Positions 1,957-15,165 of a stretch of 47,496 nucleotides of DNA are shown here, piece after piece. Both the position numbers and the translations under genes were made by a program. Where the stretch lies: positions 10,600 to 58,095 of the forward strand of contig JAAZXP010000003.1 of assembly GCA_014240055.1 (NCBI GenBank), given 5' to 3'. This stretch comes from Methanobacteriota archaeon. GTDB lineage: Archaea > Thermoplasmatota > Poseidoniia > MGIII > CG-Epi1. The notes under the pieces are model-generated. The model had not been told where the DNA came from. It was given only the letters and a program-made list of their open reading frames with translations, and made no database searches. Position 1 is the first letter of the stretch; every line of letters begins with the position of its first letter.

Positions 1957-2808
1957 ATGACAAAAATAAGGTTAGCAGCATTCGCACTCTGTATTTTGTC
2001 TATTATGATTCTACCAAATTCTGCGGCCACAAAGGATAGCTATTCAGAGGATGGATTTCTGATACTTGGCCAAGATGATCTAGTGGGAATCACTTTTTGG
2101 ATAGCGACTGCAGCTATGCTGGGTTCCAGTATTTTTTTCTTAATAGAACGTAGCAACGTTGCTCCTCAGTGGAAAACATCAATGACCATTGCTACCTTAA
2201 TCACAGGAATTGCTTTTTGGCATTATATGTATATGAGAGAGCATTGGATTCTTACCGGAGAAAGTCCAATAGTTTATCGTTACGTGGATTGGTTTATTAC
2301 CGTTCCATTACAGATTGTTGAATTTTATTTTATTTTAGCTGCAGTTACTGCAGTTACTGCAATGTTATTTTGGAGACTTCTAGGGGCTTCTGTTCTAATG
2401 CTTGTTTTTGGGTTTCTTGGAGAAACTCAAATGCTTGGAGGCAGTTCGATAATTTGGTGGATTTTATGTATGGCTTGCTGGTTCTATATCATCTATGAAA
2501 TTTTTAGAGGTGAAGCTGCAATTCTTAATGAAAATAGTGGGAATGAAGCAGGACAATTTGCATTCCAAGCCTTAAAATGGATTGTAACGGTTGGATGGGC
2601 TATCTATCCTATCGGCTATCTATATGGTCTTGATGAAACTACAATATTGGGAGTTAACATAAGCAATACAGCATACAGTCCTGAGCTGATAAACATAATT
2701 TATAATTTAGCTGATTTGATCAACAAAACTGCTTTTGGAGTTGCAATTTGGATTGCAGCAGTCAAAGATACTAAAGAGTCTAAGGGCGAACAGTCTTTTA
2801 TGTTCTAA
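1957..2808 (+). CDS. Proteorhodopsin-type light-driven proton pump (predicted blue-absorbing)
   Basis: FWHYMYMR (His75-like), YRYVDWFITVPLQIVEF (D97/T101/E108 equivalents, Gln at 105 equivalent), NKTAFGVAIW (Schiff-base Lys). Confidence 0.95.
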   Translation: MTKIRLAAFALCILSIMILPNSAATKDSYSEDGFLILGQDDLVGITFWIATAAMLGSSIFFLIERSNVAPQWKTSMTIATLITGIAFWHYMYMREHWILTGESPIVYRYVDWFITVPLQIVEFYFILAAVTAVTAMLFWRLLGASVLMLVFGFLGETQMLGGSSIIWWILCMACWFYIIYEIFRGEAAILNENSGNEAGQFAFQALKWIVTVGWAIYPIGYLYGLDETTILGVNISNTAYSPELINIIYNLADLINKTAFGVAIWIAAVKDTKESKGEQSFMF

Positions 2809-2968
2809 AATAGCTGCTTACAAAGAAAAGAATTAGCGCTACTAAAACGTCTAAAGTAGGAGAGGCACCAGGATATCCAAAATTCCAGACAATTACTAGA
2901 AGTAACCAAACTCCGAATACCCAATCTAAATCTTTTAAGCCGAAACTCGCAACGCCTTTAGGCGACAC
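2798..2968 (-). CDS. Small predicted membrane protein (56 aa), not in the ORF track
   Basis: Manual translation from GTG at 2968: MSPKGVASFGLKDLDWVFGVWLLLVIVWNFGYPGASPTLDVLVALILFFVSSYFRT*. Two hydrophobic helices; start overlaps the 3' end of the upstream KaiC-like gene. Confidence 0.6.
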   Translation of the reverse strand: MSPKGVASFGLKDLDWVFGVWLLLVIVWNFGYPGASPTLDVLVALILFFVSSYFRT

Positions 2969-3719
2969 GGGTAATCATCTCTGGTGTAATTCCATGCTCA
3001 GTTACAGCATAAATCATTACAGCAGCTTTTTCTGGATGATTGCGGATTTTCTTAATAATTAATCTATTTTCGAACTCAGCAGCCATACGTCCAACTTCAA
3101 GTTCTATTACAACGTCACAAATAGCTTCAATTTGACTATGAATTCTTGGTTCACAAGTACCTGCAGACATAGTATACATTATAGTTCCACCATTTGCCTG
3201 AGCGTATTCTTTTATTGTCCTCATAGCTGATAAAACTTCAATTGGATTATAATATTGCATAAAGAAGTCTAGCGAATCAATAACGACTCTAAAAGGCGCT
3301 TTAAGTTTAGAAATTTCATAGGTCATATCTGCAACAAAATTAATTTGATCAGAAGTAGAACCATATGAACCCAAATTTCTCAGTTCAGCAACTGAGAGTC
3401 CTTCCTGTTTAAAACGAGATGCTTGTAATTCACGAGATAAAACTTTTTCAAAATATTGAGTTCCTACATTAACAATTCTCAAATCAGTAGGCCAATTATA
3501 TTGCTCAAAAGTATCGATTAGTTCATCTGAAGTCTCGTCTGTTGAAAAATAAACTACATTTTCAGATCCAACGCCAGCTGATGCATATTGTTTAGAGAGT
3601 AATTCTTTTCCTGAACCAGAACTGCCTTCAATTAGCATAGAGCTACCCAATACAATTCCTTTACCATCAATTAATGCTTCATCTAGTCTTTCAATTCCAG
3701 TTGAGATTATTTCTGCCAT
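2958..3719 (-). CDS. KaiC/RecA-superfamily ATPase-like protein with modified Walker A (GSSGSGKE)
   Basis: GIERLDEAL...GSSMLIEGSSGSGKELL...FRVVIDSLDFF is a KaiC-like fold. Confidence 0.8.
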   Translation of the reverse strand: MAEIISTGIERLDEALIDGKGIVLGSSMLIEGSSGSGKELLSKQYASAGVGSENVVYFSTDETSDELIDTFEQYNWPTDLRIVNVGTQYFEKVLSRELQASRFKQEGLSVAELRNLGSYGSTSDQINFVADMTYEISKLKAPFRVVIDSLDFFMQYYNPIEVLSAMRTIKEYAQANGGTIMYTMSAGTCEPRIHSQIEAICDVVIELEVGRMAAEFENRLIIKKIRNHPEKAAVMIYAVTEHGITPEMITRVA

Positions 3720-3721
3720 TT

Positions 3722-4282
3722 TTATTCACCTATTACACGATCTGATAATAACTGTAATGCAGATGCCAATTCGTCGCCAGTTTGCTCTTTAACAGTCATT
3801 AACATACTATAAATTTCCTTAATACGCATAGAATTCCCAAGTACATTAATAAATTCTTTTAACACCCTAGCTTCAGAATAGATACTTAACCCATTAACTG
3901 AATCGAACATCACAAAGCTCTTCTTCGATTTTAGTCGCCTTTCTAGAAGAGAAATATTAAGTAAAATAGATTCAAGCATAGTTGGAGATTCAACATAAAG
4001 TGTTCGAGGATCATCAGTTTTTCCACCAACCGTCATCGACACTAAATCTACGAAATAAAGATCTGATAAATCTGTCTTGGTTTCTTCTAATTCTGCTAAA
4101 ATATGTGAAGAAGGTCTCGAAGTTGTGATATAAATCCCACCTAATTTTTTACTAAGTAAAACAGATGCAATTTTGACAGTATCAGTATGAAATGATTCTG
4201 CGCCAATGCTAACAGTTGTTAACGTATCTCCGTCATTAATACTCTTGATGACTGCTCCTGCAATTTCTTTAACATTGCTCAT
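3722..4282 (-). CDS. Degenerate KaiC-like protein lacking a P-loop
   Basis: Same domain layout (IYITTSRPSSHI, KSFVMFDSVNGL) but no GxxxxGK[ST]. Start chosen at 4282 (MSNVKE) because ATG overlaps the upstream stop (ATGA). Confidence 0.65.
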   Translation of the reverse strand: MSNVKEIAGAVIKSINDGDTLTTVSIGAESFHTDTVKIASVLLSKKLGGIYITTSRPSSHILAELEETKTDLSDLYFVDLVSMTVGGKTDDPRTLYVESPTMLESILLNISLLERRLKSKKSFVMFDSVNGLSIYSEARVLKEFINVLGNSMRIKEIYSMLMTVKEQTGDELASALQLLSDRVIGE

Positions 4283-5100
4283 GTGAAAGATTGTCCTCCA
4301 TCTTGTCCCCATTTGAGGAGAGGAACAACTGCCAACCCGATTGGCGTTAATTCAATCAAGTGTCTTGCACGAGAATGTTTAGTTCCTCGCATTTTTACAA
4401 CTTGTAAACTTCTCAACAAGTCTCCTTGTCTAATTATGTTACCCATAAGAACTACACCATCAGCAACGGCCTCTTCAACACCAAAAATCGAATAAGTCTG
4501 AACGTTAGAGTCTACAACAGTTTCTGAAATTAGCATAGTAGTACATCCAAAAGTACTCAAGAATTGACTTAATCTAAAGATGAAGTTACGGATACTTCCT
4601 TTATCTGGAAGTTGATAACAAACGGCAGTGATAGAGTCAATGACTAATCTTGTAACTCCTAATTCATCTACAATATCTTCAAAAGCCCCTAATAGAGCTT
4701 CCATATCTTTAGAAGTATAAGTTCCATCTAGTCTTTCAACGCCCAACCTATCGTTAATTACGGTTAAATCAAAAATATTTAATTTTCCTTCTTTAACAAG
4801 AGCATCATCAAAGAAACCATAAGTCTGTAAATTTGATAACATTTTAGATGAAGGTTCAGTTACAGAGATATAACAGCAAGTTTCTCCAGCCTTAGCACCG
4901 TTAATGAGAAATTCCATTGCTAAAGTAGTTTTTCCAGAACCCACAGTTCCAGCTAGAAGTGTTATGTTTCCAATAGGAATTCCACCGTTTAAAATACGGT
5001 CAATACCCTCGATGTAAGTTACACATTTGTCTCTAGGACGTCCGCCACGCGGGTCCAGGCTAATTGGTTTTGTTACTTCCTTTTTTGCCATTTTCATCAC
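4279..5100 (-). CDS. KaiC-domain RecA-superfamily ATPase (canonical Walker A)
   Basis: GIDRILNGGIPIGNITLLAGTVGSGKTTLAMEFLINGAKAGETCCYISVTEPSSKM; Walker B-like TRLVIDSITAV. Confidence 0.88.
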   Translation of the reverse strand: MMKMAKKEVTKPISLDPRGGRPRDKCVTYIEGIDRILNGGIPIGNITLLAGTVGSGKTTLAMEFLINGAKAGETCCYISVTEPSSKMLSNLQTYGFFDDALVKEGKLNIFDLTVINDRLGVERLDGTYTSKDMEALLGAFEDIVDELGVTRLVIDSITAVCYQLPDKGSIRNFIFRLSQFLSTFGCTTMLISETVVDSNVQTYSIFGVEEAVADGVVLMGNIIRQGDLLRSLQVVKMRGTKHSRARHLIELTPIGLAVVPLLKWGQDGGQSFT

Positions 5101-5522
5101 TCGTCAATTATAAACTGATCTACAAGGTATTGCCGAACCCTCTTTTTCAATGTTCTCTCTGTAATCTTTTCACCCTGAGCAGAATCGTGCATCACTTGTA
5201 TCTCTCTTTGAATTTCAACAGGCAGTTCAGCCCATGCCACAGGTGGTTTCTTTGGTAATAGCCCTCTGAGGTATTTTGGATTGGCTTGAGCGAAAATTTC
5301 TGCAAACCGTTCTTTGACTTTATCTTCAAAGAATTTATCAGCTTCTCTTTCGACTTCGCTGTAAGCTTTAATTAATTCTTCTTCGACAATTTGCCCTAGG
5401 TCTTCTAGGAAAACACCTTCAGGTAAAAATCGGTGGTACCAACTACCATCTTCATGGAGTGCATCCATGTGCGTACGGTTGTAAACGTCAATAAGCGGAG
5501 TTTCATATTCTTCTTTTGCCAT
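5097..5522 (-). CDS. Hypothetical charged, helical protein; first gene of the KaiC-like operon
   Basis: 141-aa ORF with ATGA overlap (5097-5100) to the KaiC gene; no recognised family. Confidence 0.7.
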   Translation of the reverse strand: MAKEEYETPLIDVYNRTHMDALHEDGSWYHRFLPEGVFLEDLGQIVEEELIKAYSEVEREADKFFEDKVKERFAEIFAQANPKYLRGLLPKKPPVAWAELPVEIQREIQVMHDSAQGEKITERTLKKRVRQYLVDQFIIDE

Positions 5523-12855: not shown

Positions 12856-13839
12856 TTATGCCTCCTTATAGTGGTTAAATCTAGGTTGATAGATCAAGCC
12901 TTGATCAGTTAAAGAATCAAGAACTTCATCTAGCATGGGTCCGTCTACACCTTCCATTGAGATTGCAATGCCTAGATCATCATAGTAAATCCCATCTCCT
13001 TCATCCATTTTTCGAATCAAATTCATAACTTTTGATTCATTATCGTCTGTTTTTTTATCTTCAGTTACCTTTTCAGTTTCAACTTCCGTTTCTGGTTTTT
13101 CTTCTTTAGATATTTCAGTTTCAACTTTCGTTTCCGGGTTTTCTTTTTCAGATTGAACTGCTGCGTCAATATTATCTCCAGCAGATTCAAATTCTCCGGT
13201 AAATTCGCTTTCAGGTGATTCTAATTCTCCACCAGCTAAACGTGTTAAACAGTTGTATAATAGTGCTTGATAATTTTCAAGAGCAACACTTTGATAAAAT
13301 TCTCTTGAAAGTTTTATTCCGTCCATTTCCCGATCATTAAGTTTAAGTTTCCCAAAATCTTCTTCATTATCAAAGGCTTTAGTTGCTTTTATTCGAAGCA
13401 TGAGTCCATCACACGCCCTCACAGCCCAATGATTAACTTCCTTCATTGTAACTGCACGGATACTTTCAGGTTGAACGCTCACATATGTTCTTTCACTATC
13501 TTCAGGGGTACGTGCACGAACTTTACCTACACAAAGGACTGGAACTCCAACTTCTAACTTAGACAGAGCAGCAGCTCCTTCTGGGTTATATTGTCCAGCT
13601 TGGAGATAGTAATAATCGCCATTTGGATCAATTACTCTTGCAGTATAGAAGGGATCTTCTTCACTTCCTCGATTTTCTATTTGATCTAAAACTCCAGCAA
13701 TTAGAACTCGTGAAAGTTTTCCCCCTATTTCAGATATCAGATACGTTGGAGAGTATTCTCGATCTTCTACATGTTTTTCAATTGAAGAAGCTAGTTCTTG
13801 AGCTAGTACAAGAATTCCCGGTTCTCTTCTTTGAGCCAT
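12856..13839 (-). CDS. RPA-associated OB-fold protein with C-terminal winged-helix-like domain
   Basis: OB-like N-terminus (KLSRVLIAGVLDQIENRGSEEDPFYTARVIDPNGDYYYLQAG); operon position between RPA and RadA matches archaeal RPA-associated proteins (COG3390-like). Confidence 0.75.
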   Translation of the reverse strand: MAQRREPGILVLAQELASSIEKHVEDREYSPTYLISEIGGKLSRVLIAGVLDQIENRGSEEDPFYTARVIDPNGDYYYLQAGQYNPEGAAALSKLEVGVPVLCVGKVRARTPEDSERTYVSVQPESIRAVTMKEVNHWAVRACDGLMLRIKATKAFDNEEDFGKLKLNDREMDGIKLSREFYQSVALENYQALLYNCLTRLAGGELESPESEFTGEFESAGDNIDAAVQSEKENPETKVETEISKEEKPETEVETEKVTEDKKTDDNESKVMNLIRKMDEGDGIYYDDLGIAISMEGVDGPMLDEVLDSLTDQGLIYQPRFNHYKEA

Positions 13840-15165
13840 TTAGCCCTCCAATGCAGCTAAAAACTGGCGTGCGGCGCTAGGAACATCAATTTCAGTTGCA
13901 GGTTCACAACTCTTTGCAAAAAAGGATAATCCATATTCATCAGACCTTGCAAATCCTCTCAATTTTAAAGGCTTCAGCAATAATGCATCTTCAATTTCCT
14001 CAAATAAGGCTTCAGGCCCAAAATTTTCTTTAACAAATTCGAGACAAGAATCAATATCTCTTCCTAATAATTTTTCAGTTATTTCACGATTGAGATATGC
14101 AGTACAAGATCCTGAACCATCATCAAAAATCATTTTTATTCTAAGATCAGGAGTTGCATTTTTACGATCATCTCCGTTCTTGATTAAGCGATTAGTTTCT
14201 TTATCTCTGAATATTAGTCCACTTCCTTCACGTATGTTGAATACATGGCCTTCTACGACAGCATCAGAAGCTCCGTTACGCTCATCTAGTTGTGATAATG
14301 AATACATTACTCCATTTTCATATTCTTGTAGAGACGGCAATGAACTATCTTCAATATCTGTAAATTTAGTATATTCTCCAAATTGTAAATCAGGTCCATT
14401 GAATTCTTTTACATATGCATTTTCAATTTTATATGTTTTTCCAGCAATAATATTATGGTCTTCCCAAGAGGTAAATCGACAAGTTCCAGTACTGTCTCCT
14501 ACAGTACCTCCAAAAATAGTCTTAGGTTCATTTTTTACAGTTATTTTCCGTGTTTCCACATCAATAATGCGTAGTTTAACAGAAACGTTACTCATTCCTG
14601 GCTTTAGATCTACTAATTGAAATTCTTGTCCCGGTTGAGCGGCTTTACTTTTAATGACTCCTAAATCTAAATTTTCTAAGTCTTTATCTTCTATTTTTTT
14701 GATACTGCCTTCATTTATGTTTAAAGTGATAATATCATTCCAACTTTTTGAATATGCATTTAGAACTTCTATAGTGTCTCCACTTTCGAAATCAAAGTTT
14801 TCACTCCAGTATGAATATCGCATTCGCATAGTTGAATCTCCGATTTCACCTTCGAAAAGAACTTTCTGAGCGCCTTCTTTAGTAGTAATTTCTTTTCTAA
14901 ATACAGATACAATTTTAGCTTTAAACTGGATATTACTTTCACCAGGTTTAATTTGTGCCAGTAATCTCTGGGCATCTACTTGTAAAACATTAGGGTTTCC
15001 ATAGTGTTTTCTTACAATTGATTCTTTGGCTGTTGCCAAATCAATTCCATATTCTTCTACGTATCTTTTTAATTCAGTTATGATTACGTTTCTTTCTAGC
15101 TTATCGCCGATTGCCTTAACAATATCGTCGACATGTGTTTCAAAATCCGCTTCGTTCGTTTGCAT
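13840..15165 (-). CDS. Replication factor A (RPA) large subunit, multi-OB ssDNA-binding protein
   Basis: Repeated OB units (KITVKNEPKTIFGGTVGDSTGTCRFTSWEDHNIIAGKTYKIENAYVKEF; GEIGDSTMRMRYSYWS...). Confidence 0.9.
   Translation of the reverse strand: MQTNEADFETHVDDIVKAIGDKLERNVIITELKRYVEEYGIDLATAKESIVRKHYGNPNVLQVDAQRLLAQIKPGESNIQFKAKIVSVFRKEITTKEGAQKVLFEGEIGDSTMRMRYSYWSENFDFESGDTIEVLNAYSKSWNDIITLNINEGSIKKIEDKDLENLDLGVIKSKAAQPGQEFQLVDLKPGMSNVSVKLRIIDVETRKITVKNEPKTIFGGTVGDSTGTCRFTSWEDHNIIAGKTYKIENAYVKEFNGPDLQFGEYTKFTDIEDSSLPSLQEYENGVMYSLSQLDERNGASDAVVEGHVFNIREGSGLIFRDKETNRLIKNGDDRKNATPDLRIKMIFDDGSGSCTAYLNREITEKLLGRDIDSCLEFVKENFGPEALFEEIEDALLLKPLKLRGFARSDEYGLSFFAKSCEPATEIDVPSAARQFLAALEG

Follow-up and report, generated by a model that had tools for sequence, protein, structure and literature searches.

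Why would an archaeal lineage keep an intact KaiC-family ATPase in fixed company with two paralogues that lack a normal P-loop? The question is raised by an operon at positions 2798-5522 (minus strand) of a 47,496-nucleotide stretch of DNA, referred to here as the window, from a Methanobacteriota archaeon whose 1.23 Mb draft genome belongs to the family Marine Group III (MGIII). A preliminary description of the window, made from the sequence alone, listed five minus-strand open reading frames (ORFs) there and read them as one unit built on three KaiC/RecA-fold paralogues with canonical, absent and degenerate P-loops. Both the positions of the ORFs and the three-paralogue core are borne out by our analysis. 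However, the conserved unit is the trio of genes A, B and C and not all five genes, as the A-B-C set is kept across many lineages, whereas the two outer genes, X141 and S56, are lineage-limited. We propose, as a reading with an even chance of being correct, that the trio is a three-paralogue, ArlH-like regulatory ATPase module for type IV pili that has been vertically inherited in Thermoplasmatota. Four lines of evidence converge on pili: co-occurrence of the trio with a PilB3-type ATPase, pilin genes directly downstream, a candidate adhesin gene (c5) upstream, and a modelled fold of B whose nearest match is ArlH.

Motif content and fold of the three paralogues

Judged by its motifs, gene A (4279-5097, minus strand) is a canonical KaiC-family ATPase. 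Its product scores 188.6 bits against the KaiC profile PF06745 (curated cut-off 26.6) and matches KaiC in the PDB with an E value of 2.9e-52, the whole domain aligning with both the CI and the CII domain. It carries the Walker A motif GTVGSGKTT, the Glu of TEP, the Walker B segment RLVIDS and the finger KMRGTKH. In a motif survey of about 20 lineages per protein (A 20, B 20, C 19), the Walker A GKT, the Glu, the Walker B Asp and the K-x-[RK]-G-x-x-H finger of A were present in 20/20, and the R in 19.

Gene C (2958-3719, minus strand) encodes a KaiC-like protein, apparently a pseudo-ATPase, whose Walker A reads GSSGSGKE. It reaches 91.2 bits against PF06745, aligns with KaiC CII (E 1.1e-16) and has the ArlH structure 4yds as a further profile match. 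It also passes the cut-offs of DUF7504 (PF24336; 31.8 versus 27 bits) and PAXNEB/Elp4 (PF05625; 39.3 versus 28 bits, with the best stretch at residues 4-67 of the N-terminal part), the Elp4 score being far under the KaiC score. A Glu or Asp occupies the Mg-binding Thr/Ser position next to the Walker A Lys in all 19 lineages surveyed, and the Lys itself is retained only in the MGIII family; the P-loop loss is thus phylum-wide, reaching well beyond the window genome. The catalytic Glu and the K-x-[RK] finger are retained in 19/19, and VIDS is also present in the window copy.

Gene B (3722-4282, minus strand; about 186 amino acids) is the most divergent in its motifs: the P-loop, the catalytic Glu and the trans-acting finger are all missing in 20/20 lineages, and an hhhDS segment and an [ED]xPxMLE motif are present in 20/20. 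The PF06745 search suggested in the preliminary description succeeds for A and C and fails for the single B sequence (18.2 bits, under the cut-off of 26.6); however, PF06745 is matched by 19/19 members of the B family, with a best value of 1.4e-7. The AlphaFold2 (AF2) model of B has a mean predicted local distance difference test score (pLDDT) of 80.5 and a predicted template modelling score (pTM) of 0.79, and its top PDB match in Foldseek is FlaH/ArlH of S. acidocaldarius (4yds; E 1.3e-7), followed by KaiC structures. Because the family matches PF06745 and the modelled fold matches ArlH and KaiC, we place B in the KaiC superfamily, as a KaiC/RecA-fold protein. A profile search of B against PDB sequences gave no match, the likeness to ArlH and KaiC coming from the fold comparison. 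Several B members match Elp5 weakly, and DUF7504 and DUF7090 are both matched weakly; matches to Shiga-toxin B subunits (E 0.01-0.09) were dismissed as chance.

In KaiC, the finger residues act on the nucleotide of the neighbouring subunit. Since C keeps the finger without a normal P-loop and B is without both, C looks suited to complete the site of A with its own site closed, and B looks suited to neither task.

Conservation and origin of the trio

Of 293 Thermoplasmatota genomes, 156 contain a relative of B by profile search; the lowest-scoring of these relatives could be KaiC proteins of another kind. The A-B-C order recurs round these relatives in many Thermoplasmatota families, and it is identical in MGIII and in two families resembling Marine Group II (MGII), namely f2 (MGIIa-like) and f3 (MGIIb-like), labels assigned by inference with published traits among the grounds. 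Gene-neighbourhood conservation across MGII and MGIII, which had been proposed as a check, is therefore confirmed for these three genes. Synteny was counted over the best 80 loci in a scan of named genomes, with only evaluable loci in each denominator: A lies upstream of B in 74/75 and C downstream in 54/61. All 80 loci come from Thermoplasmata/Thermoplasmatota or from metagenome-assembled genomes labelled only as Euryarchaeota or archaeon, and among them are Aciduliprofundum/DHVE2, Methanomassiliicoccales, marine group III and Thalassarchaeaceae. Beyond the trio, the neighbours vary with lineage and include transporters, ATP synthase genes, pilins or c5. A tie to the A-type ATP synthase operon that lies beside the trio in f2 was rejected, as the arrangement is not conserved elsewhere.

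In a tree of 59 A, B and C proteins, each forms a clade behind one branch, with support of 99 for A, 100 for B and 93 for C. A, B and C are single-origin clades, and the duplications and motif losses are therefore older than the lineages sampled.

Within this tree, A and B of MGIII cluster with a genome from outside the class, G107, and not with MGII (support 99 for A and 86 for B; window 4279-5100 as first called, L093 4337-5092). Relatives of X141 outside MGIII likewise come from G107 alone. An ancient transfer is a possible origin of this affinity.

Association with type IV pili

Among 99 Poseidoniia genomes, the presence or absence of the trio agrees with that of a PilB3-type ATPase in 95 (both present in 68, both absent in 27), and the four genomes that disagree are all incomplete (54-87%). 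In family f3 the trio was found in 9/9 genomes with the PilB3-type ATPase versus 0/27 without it. The association does not extend to archaella. A link to the archaellum was rejected in favour of pili because the two occur separately: genera g9 and g21 of f3 encode an archaellum-type ATPase but not the trio, and in MGIII the trio occurs without that ATPase. Published work describes 'flagellar' operons for MGIIa and for some members of MGIIb (PMC6336850, PMC6461757).

Gene order adds a second line of evidence. Pilin genes of the Pilin_N type, checked against Pfam, lie on the same strand directly downstream of the trio (or of A-B in loci without C) in 26 of the 55 evaluable loci. In 9 of the 26 genomes with whole-genome counts, a pilin lies within 2.6 kb downstream, as against 0.03 expected at random, an excess of about 300-fold; kinship among the genomes reduces the number of independent events behind this figure but leaves the conserved linkage itself unaffected. 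The trio is thus linked to pilus genes both by the Pilin_N genes downstream and by its co-occurrence with the PilB3-type ATPase.

Upstream of A, MGII loci carry c5, which encodes a protein with a Lamin Tail Domain behind its pilin-like N-terminus (L035-L042 and L052-L054, e.g. L036 10610-11725). An orthologue (E 9e-24) stands upstream of the trio in another family (L095 6104-7222). By this domain make-up, c5 is a candidate pilus-associated adhesin.

The preliminary description had noted that no ArlI or ArlJ partner lies alongside the operon. This holds for the locus itself. However, another part of the genome encodes a PilB3-type ATPase together with two platform ORFs, and in other lineages the trio borders directly on pilin genes. 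The pilus locus of the window genome, on contig C58 (L056 8687-15523), comprises a 750-amino-acid PilB3-type ATPase, about 250 residues longer than its MGII counterpart, a platform protein split into two ORFs, and proteins with weak DUF7288, DUF7289 and Pilin_N-like matches.

The operon in the window and its neighbours

The first-called ORFs span 2798-2968 (S56), 2958-3719 (C), 3722-4312 (B), 4279-5100 (A) and 5097-5522 (X141). The start of B is most likely the ATG at 4282, in an ATGA overlap with the stop of A, which gives 186 amino acids; the 10 extra residues of the longer call are not conserved. The start of A is probably the ATG at 5097 instead of the GTG at 5100, in a TGATG overlap with the stop of X141 (1 nt). 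B and C are separated by 2 nt, and S56 and C overlap by 11 nt. Because of the ATGA, TGATG and 11-nt overlaps, translational coupling is suggested.

X141 (5097-5522, minus strand), a predicted helical protein of 141 amino acids, is a family-level accessory. Six matches within the MGIII family have 53-96% identity, and the relatives outside the family are distant repeat proteins from one genome, G107. The C-terminal module of X141, LPxKPxP...TxRKxxRxYL, occurs in two G107 proteins: one of 303 amino acids with three copies (L117 994-1905), whose gene adjoins one for a DNA polymerase II large subunit-like protein, and one of 241 amino acids with a single copy (L118 1348-2073). X141 has no Pfam match, and its low-confidence AF2 model (pLDDT 73.6, pTM 0.43) has no PDB fold match. 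S56 (2798-2968, minus strand), a poorly conserved accessory ORF without a Pfam match, probably encodes two membrane helices. By tblastn its occurrence is limited to a subset of the genomes in the genus (51-71% identity), and the nearest relative has a frameshifted copy (G012; L048). The suggested tethering of the complex to the membrane by this small protein therefore finds no support as a general feature, and homologues of X141 and S56 are scattered among related genomes, as those of A, B and C are not.

The proteorhodopsin gene (1957-2808, plus strand; 138 bits against PF01036) converges on the operon and is judged to lie outside the module. It sits between a GYD-domain gene and the trio. 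In the nearest relative, G012 (99% identity in A), the GYD gene directly borders the end of the trio and no rhodopsin intervenes, so the position reflects a recent gain or loss. Of the 20 MGIII family genomes with the trio, the window genome is the one with a rhodopsin beside it, and none was detected in 14, drafts in which some absences may be gaps.

Two further genes at 12856-15165 of the window, which we take to be a replication protein A type protein and its partner, precede RadA; the homologous pair in MGII abuts a Tad-like ATPase operon. They look like housekeeping neighbours, and a tie to the trio was rejected.

Discussion

If the trio is an ArlH-like module for type IV pili, its motif pattern suggests how it might work. 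A, B and C would be subunits of a single hetero-oligomeric ring, complete or partial, with A as the sole nucleotide-hydrolysing or autophosphorylating subunit. C, in which an acid replaces the Walker A Thr, would not bind Mg-ATP normally, but its K-x-[RK] finger would complete the site of A in trans. B, having neither site nor finger, would end the chain of active A sites and could serve as a docking or sensing adaptor. In response to a cue, the state of the A:B:C assembly would then determine how active the pilus ATPase is or how many pilins are supplied. We infer both the hetero-oligomer and the switch function; the earlier proposal that one subunit is active and two are regulatory agrees with the motifs conserved in each protein and with the A-B-C synteny. 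A fuller version, in which a phylum-wide mixed KaiC ring of one catalytic and two specialised pseudo-ATPase paralogues, with C donating its finger in trans and bearing an invariant acid at the Walker A Thr position, would be the pilus counterpart of ArlH, an allosteric switch for PilB3-type pili and an archaeal parallel to Elp456, is possible, but we consider it rather unlikely as a whole.

Several observations weigh against a pilus module. In the window genome itself the trio has no adjacent pilin or pilus ATPase, both of which are on contig C58. The co-occurrence in Poseidoniia may reflect very few independent losses, so that Fisher p-values overstate it, and the 9/9 versus 0/27 pattern in f3 may likewise stem from one or a few losses. 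Outside Poseidoniia, many T2SSF-positive genomes are without the trio, and type IV pili therefore do not require it. Finally, the locus does not strictly require C, since some lineages have A-B only beside pilins.

The alternative that survives best makes the trio a signalling or gene-regulation hub that controls the expression of pilins or surface proteins, with other outputs as well, and does not act on the motor. This would explain why its neighbours are pilin genes and not motor genes, and it has a precedent in the KaiC-like proteins CirA and CirD, which control archaellation in Haloferax (PMC13286277); hubs built on KaiC proteins have also been proposed for archaea. It would also accommodate the two-domain protein whose gene separates B from C in L094 and L095, a rare insertion (2/79 loci) whose L095 copy matches MetOD1 (24.5 versus 23.8 bits); MetOD1 is related to sensor-type HNOB/V4R domains (PMC5847659), and the insertion, which fits a sensing role, counts in favour of the pilus switch as well. 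However, the inspected loci show no conserved gene for a DNA-binding protein next to the trio, the trio follows a specific pilus ATPase in Poseidoniia, and the nearest fold to B is the motor switch ArlH. We regard this alternative as doubtful but serious.

It is unlikely that A, B and C act independently, as three homo-oligomers that share an operon. Both KaiC and ArlH do form homo-hexamers, but B and C are without a canonical site of their own in all lineages and have nevertheless been kept phylum-deep in overlapping or abutting genes, and C retains exactly the finger that would serve a neighbour's site. A housekeeping function, for example as a hetero-hexameric RecA-fold ring that handles nucleic acids or tRNA in the manner of Elp456, with the pilin linkage incidental, appears quite improbable. 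The Elp4 match of C, the weak Elp5 matches of several B proteins and the make-up of Elp456 itself, in which three RecA-fold paralogues that lack the consensus Walker A residues form a ring (PMC11050213), favour it. Against it stand the far higher KaiC score of C, the absence of the trio from 27 f3 genomes, which follows pilus loss, and a pilin adjacency far above random. The earlier speculation that the trio acts together with the neighbouring proteorhodopsin in signalling by light or energy draws on a convergent adjacency in this one genome and is very improbable, being largely refuted by distribution: the adjacency is unique among the family genomes, most of which have the trio with no detected rhodopsin, and the trio also occurs in Methanomassiliicoccales and Aciduliprofundum.

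To our knowledge, no dedicated equivalent of ArlH has been established for archaeal type IV pili. The trio is a candidate for a switch that turns adhesion pili on and off in Thermoplasmatota, including abundant uncultured marine groups. In MGII and MGIII, whose 'flagellar' genes have been difficult to assign, its distribution allows pili to be told apart from archaella, and motif swaps among its members make the role of pseudo-ATPases in KaiC/RecA rings testable.

Comparison with known systems

The closest known counterpart is ArlH (FlaH), which is the best structural match of B and a profile match of C and shares with the trio a link to type IV filaments. ArlH is an ATP-binding autokinase that switches ArlI and autophosphorylates without hydrolysing ATP (PMC8978795). 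ArlH is a single protein whose gene shares the archaellum operon with those of ArlI and ArlJ. The trio, in contrast, comprises three paralogues, two of them without a normal P-loop, encoded away from motor genes; in the inspected loci it was not found in an operon of that kind. The MGII archaellum operon carries its own, separate ArlH-like gene (L059), and the trio proteins do not reach the NCBIfam cut-offs for ArlH and FlaH (NF052589 and NF004723; C scores 61.1 versus 215 and 65.3 versus 194 bits, A and B lower).

Cyanobacterial KaiC shares its motifs with A, which aligns with both of its domains. However, the KaiC of the KaiABC clock is a double-domain protein, whereas A, B and C are single-domain proteins; the circ_KaiC cut-off of NCBIfam is not reached (123 versus 546 bits), and no KaiA or KaiB gene was noticed beside the trio in the inspected loci. 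The Elp4-Elp5-Elp6 subcomplex of Elongator resembles the proposed assembly in being a hetero-hexameric ring, but it is eukaryotic and acts in tRNA modification, whereas A has complete ATPase motifs and the genes track with pili. DUF7504, whose cut-off C passes, and DUF7090, both of them matched weakly by B members, are families of unknown function.

KaiC-family ATPases linked to type IV pili (arCOG01171, arCOG01174 and arCOG01175) are likewise encoded beside archaeal pilus loci, according to Makarova 2016 (PMC4858521), and inactivated KaiC-like domains (iKaiC) are an established notion (PMC5847659). The passages compared here mention neither a fixed three-gene A-B-C set whose motif losses complement each other nor an invariant acid in the Walker A of C; the 2017 KaiC survey lay outside this comparison, and an earlier description of the triad in the literature is possible. 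What the trio presents is known parts, KaiC ATPases and their association with type IV pili, in an unusual and deeply conserved arrangement.

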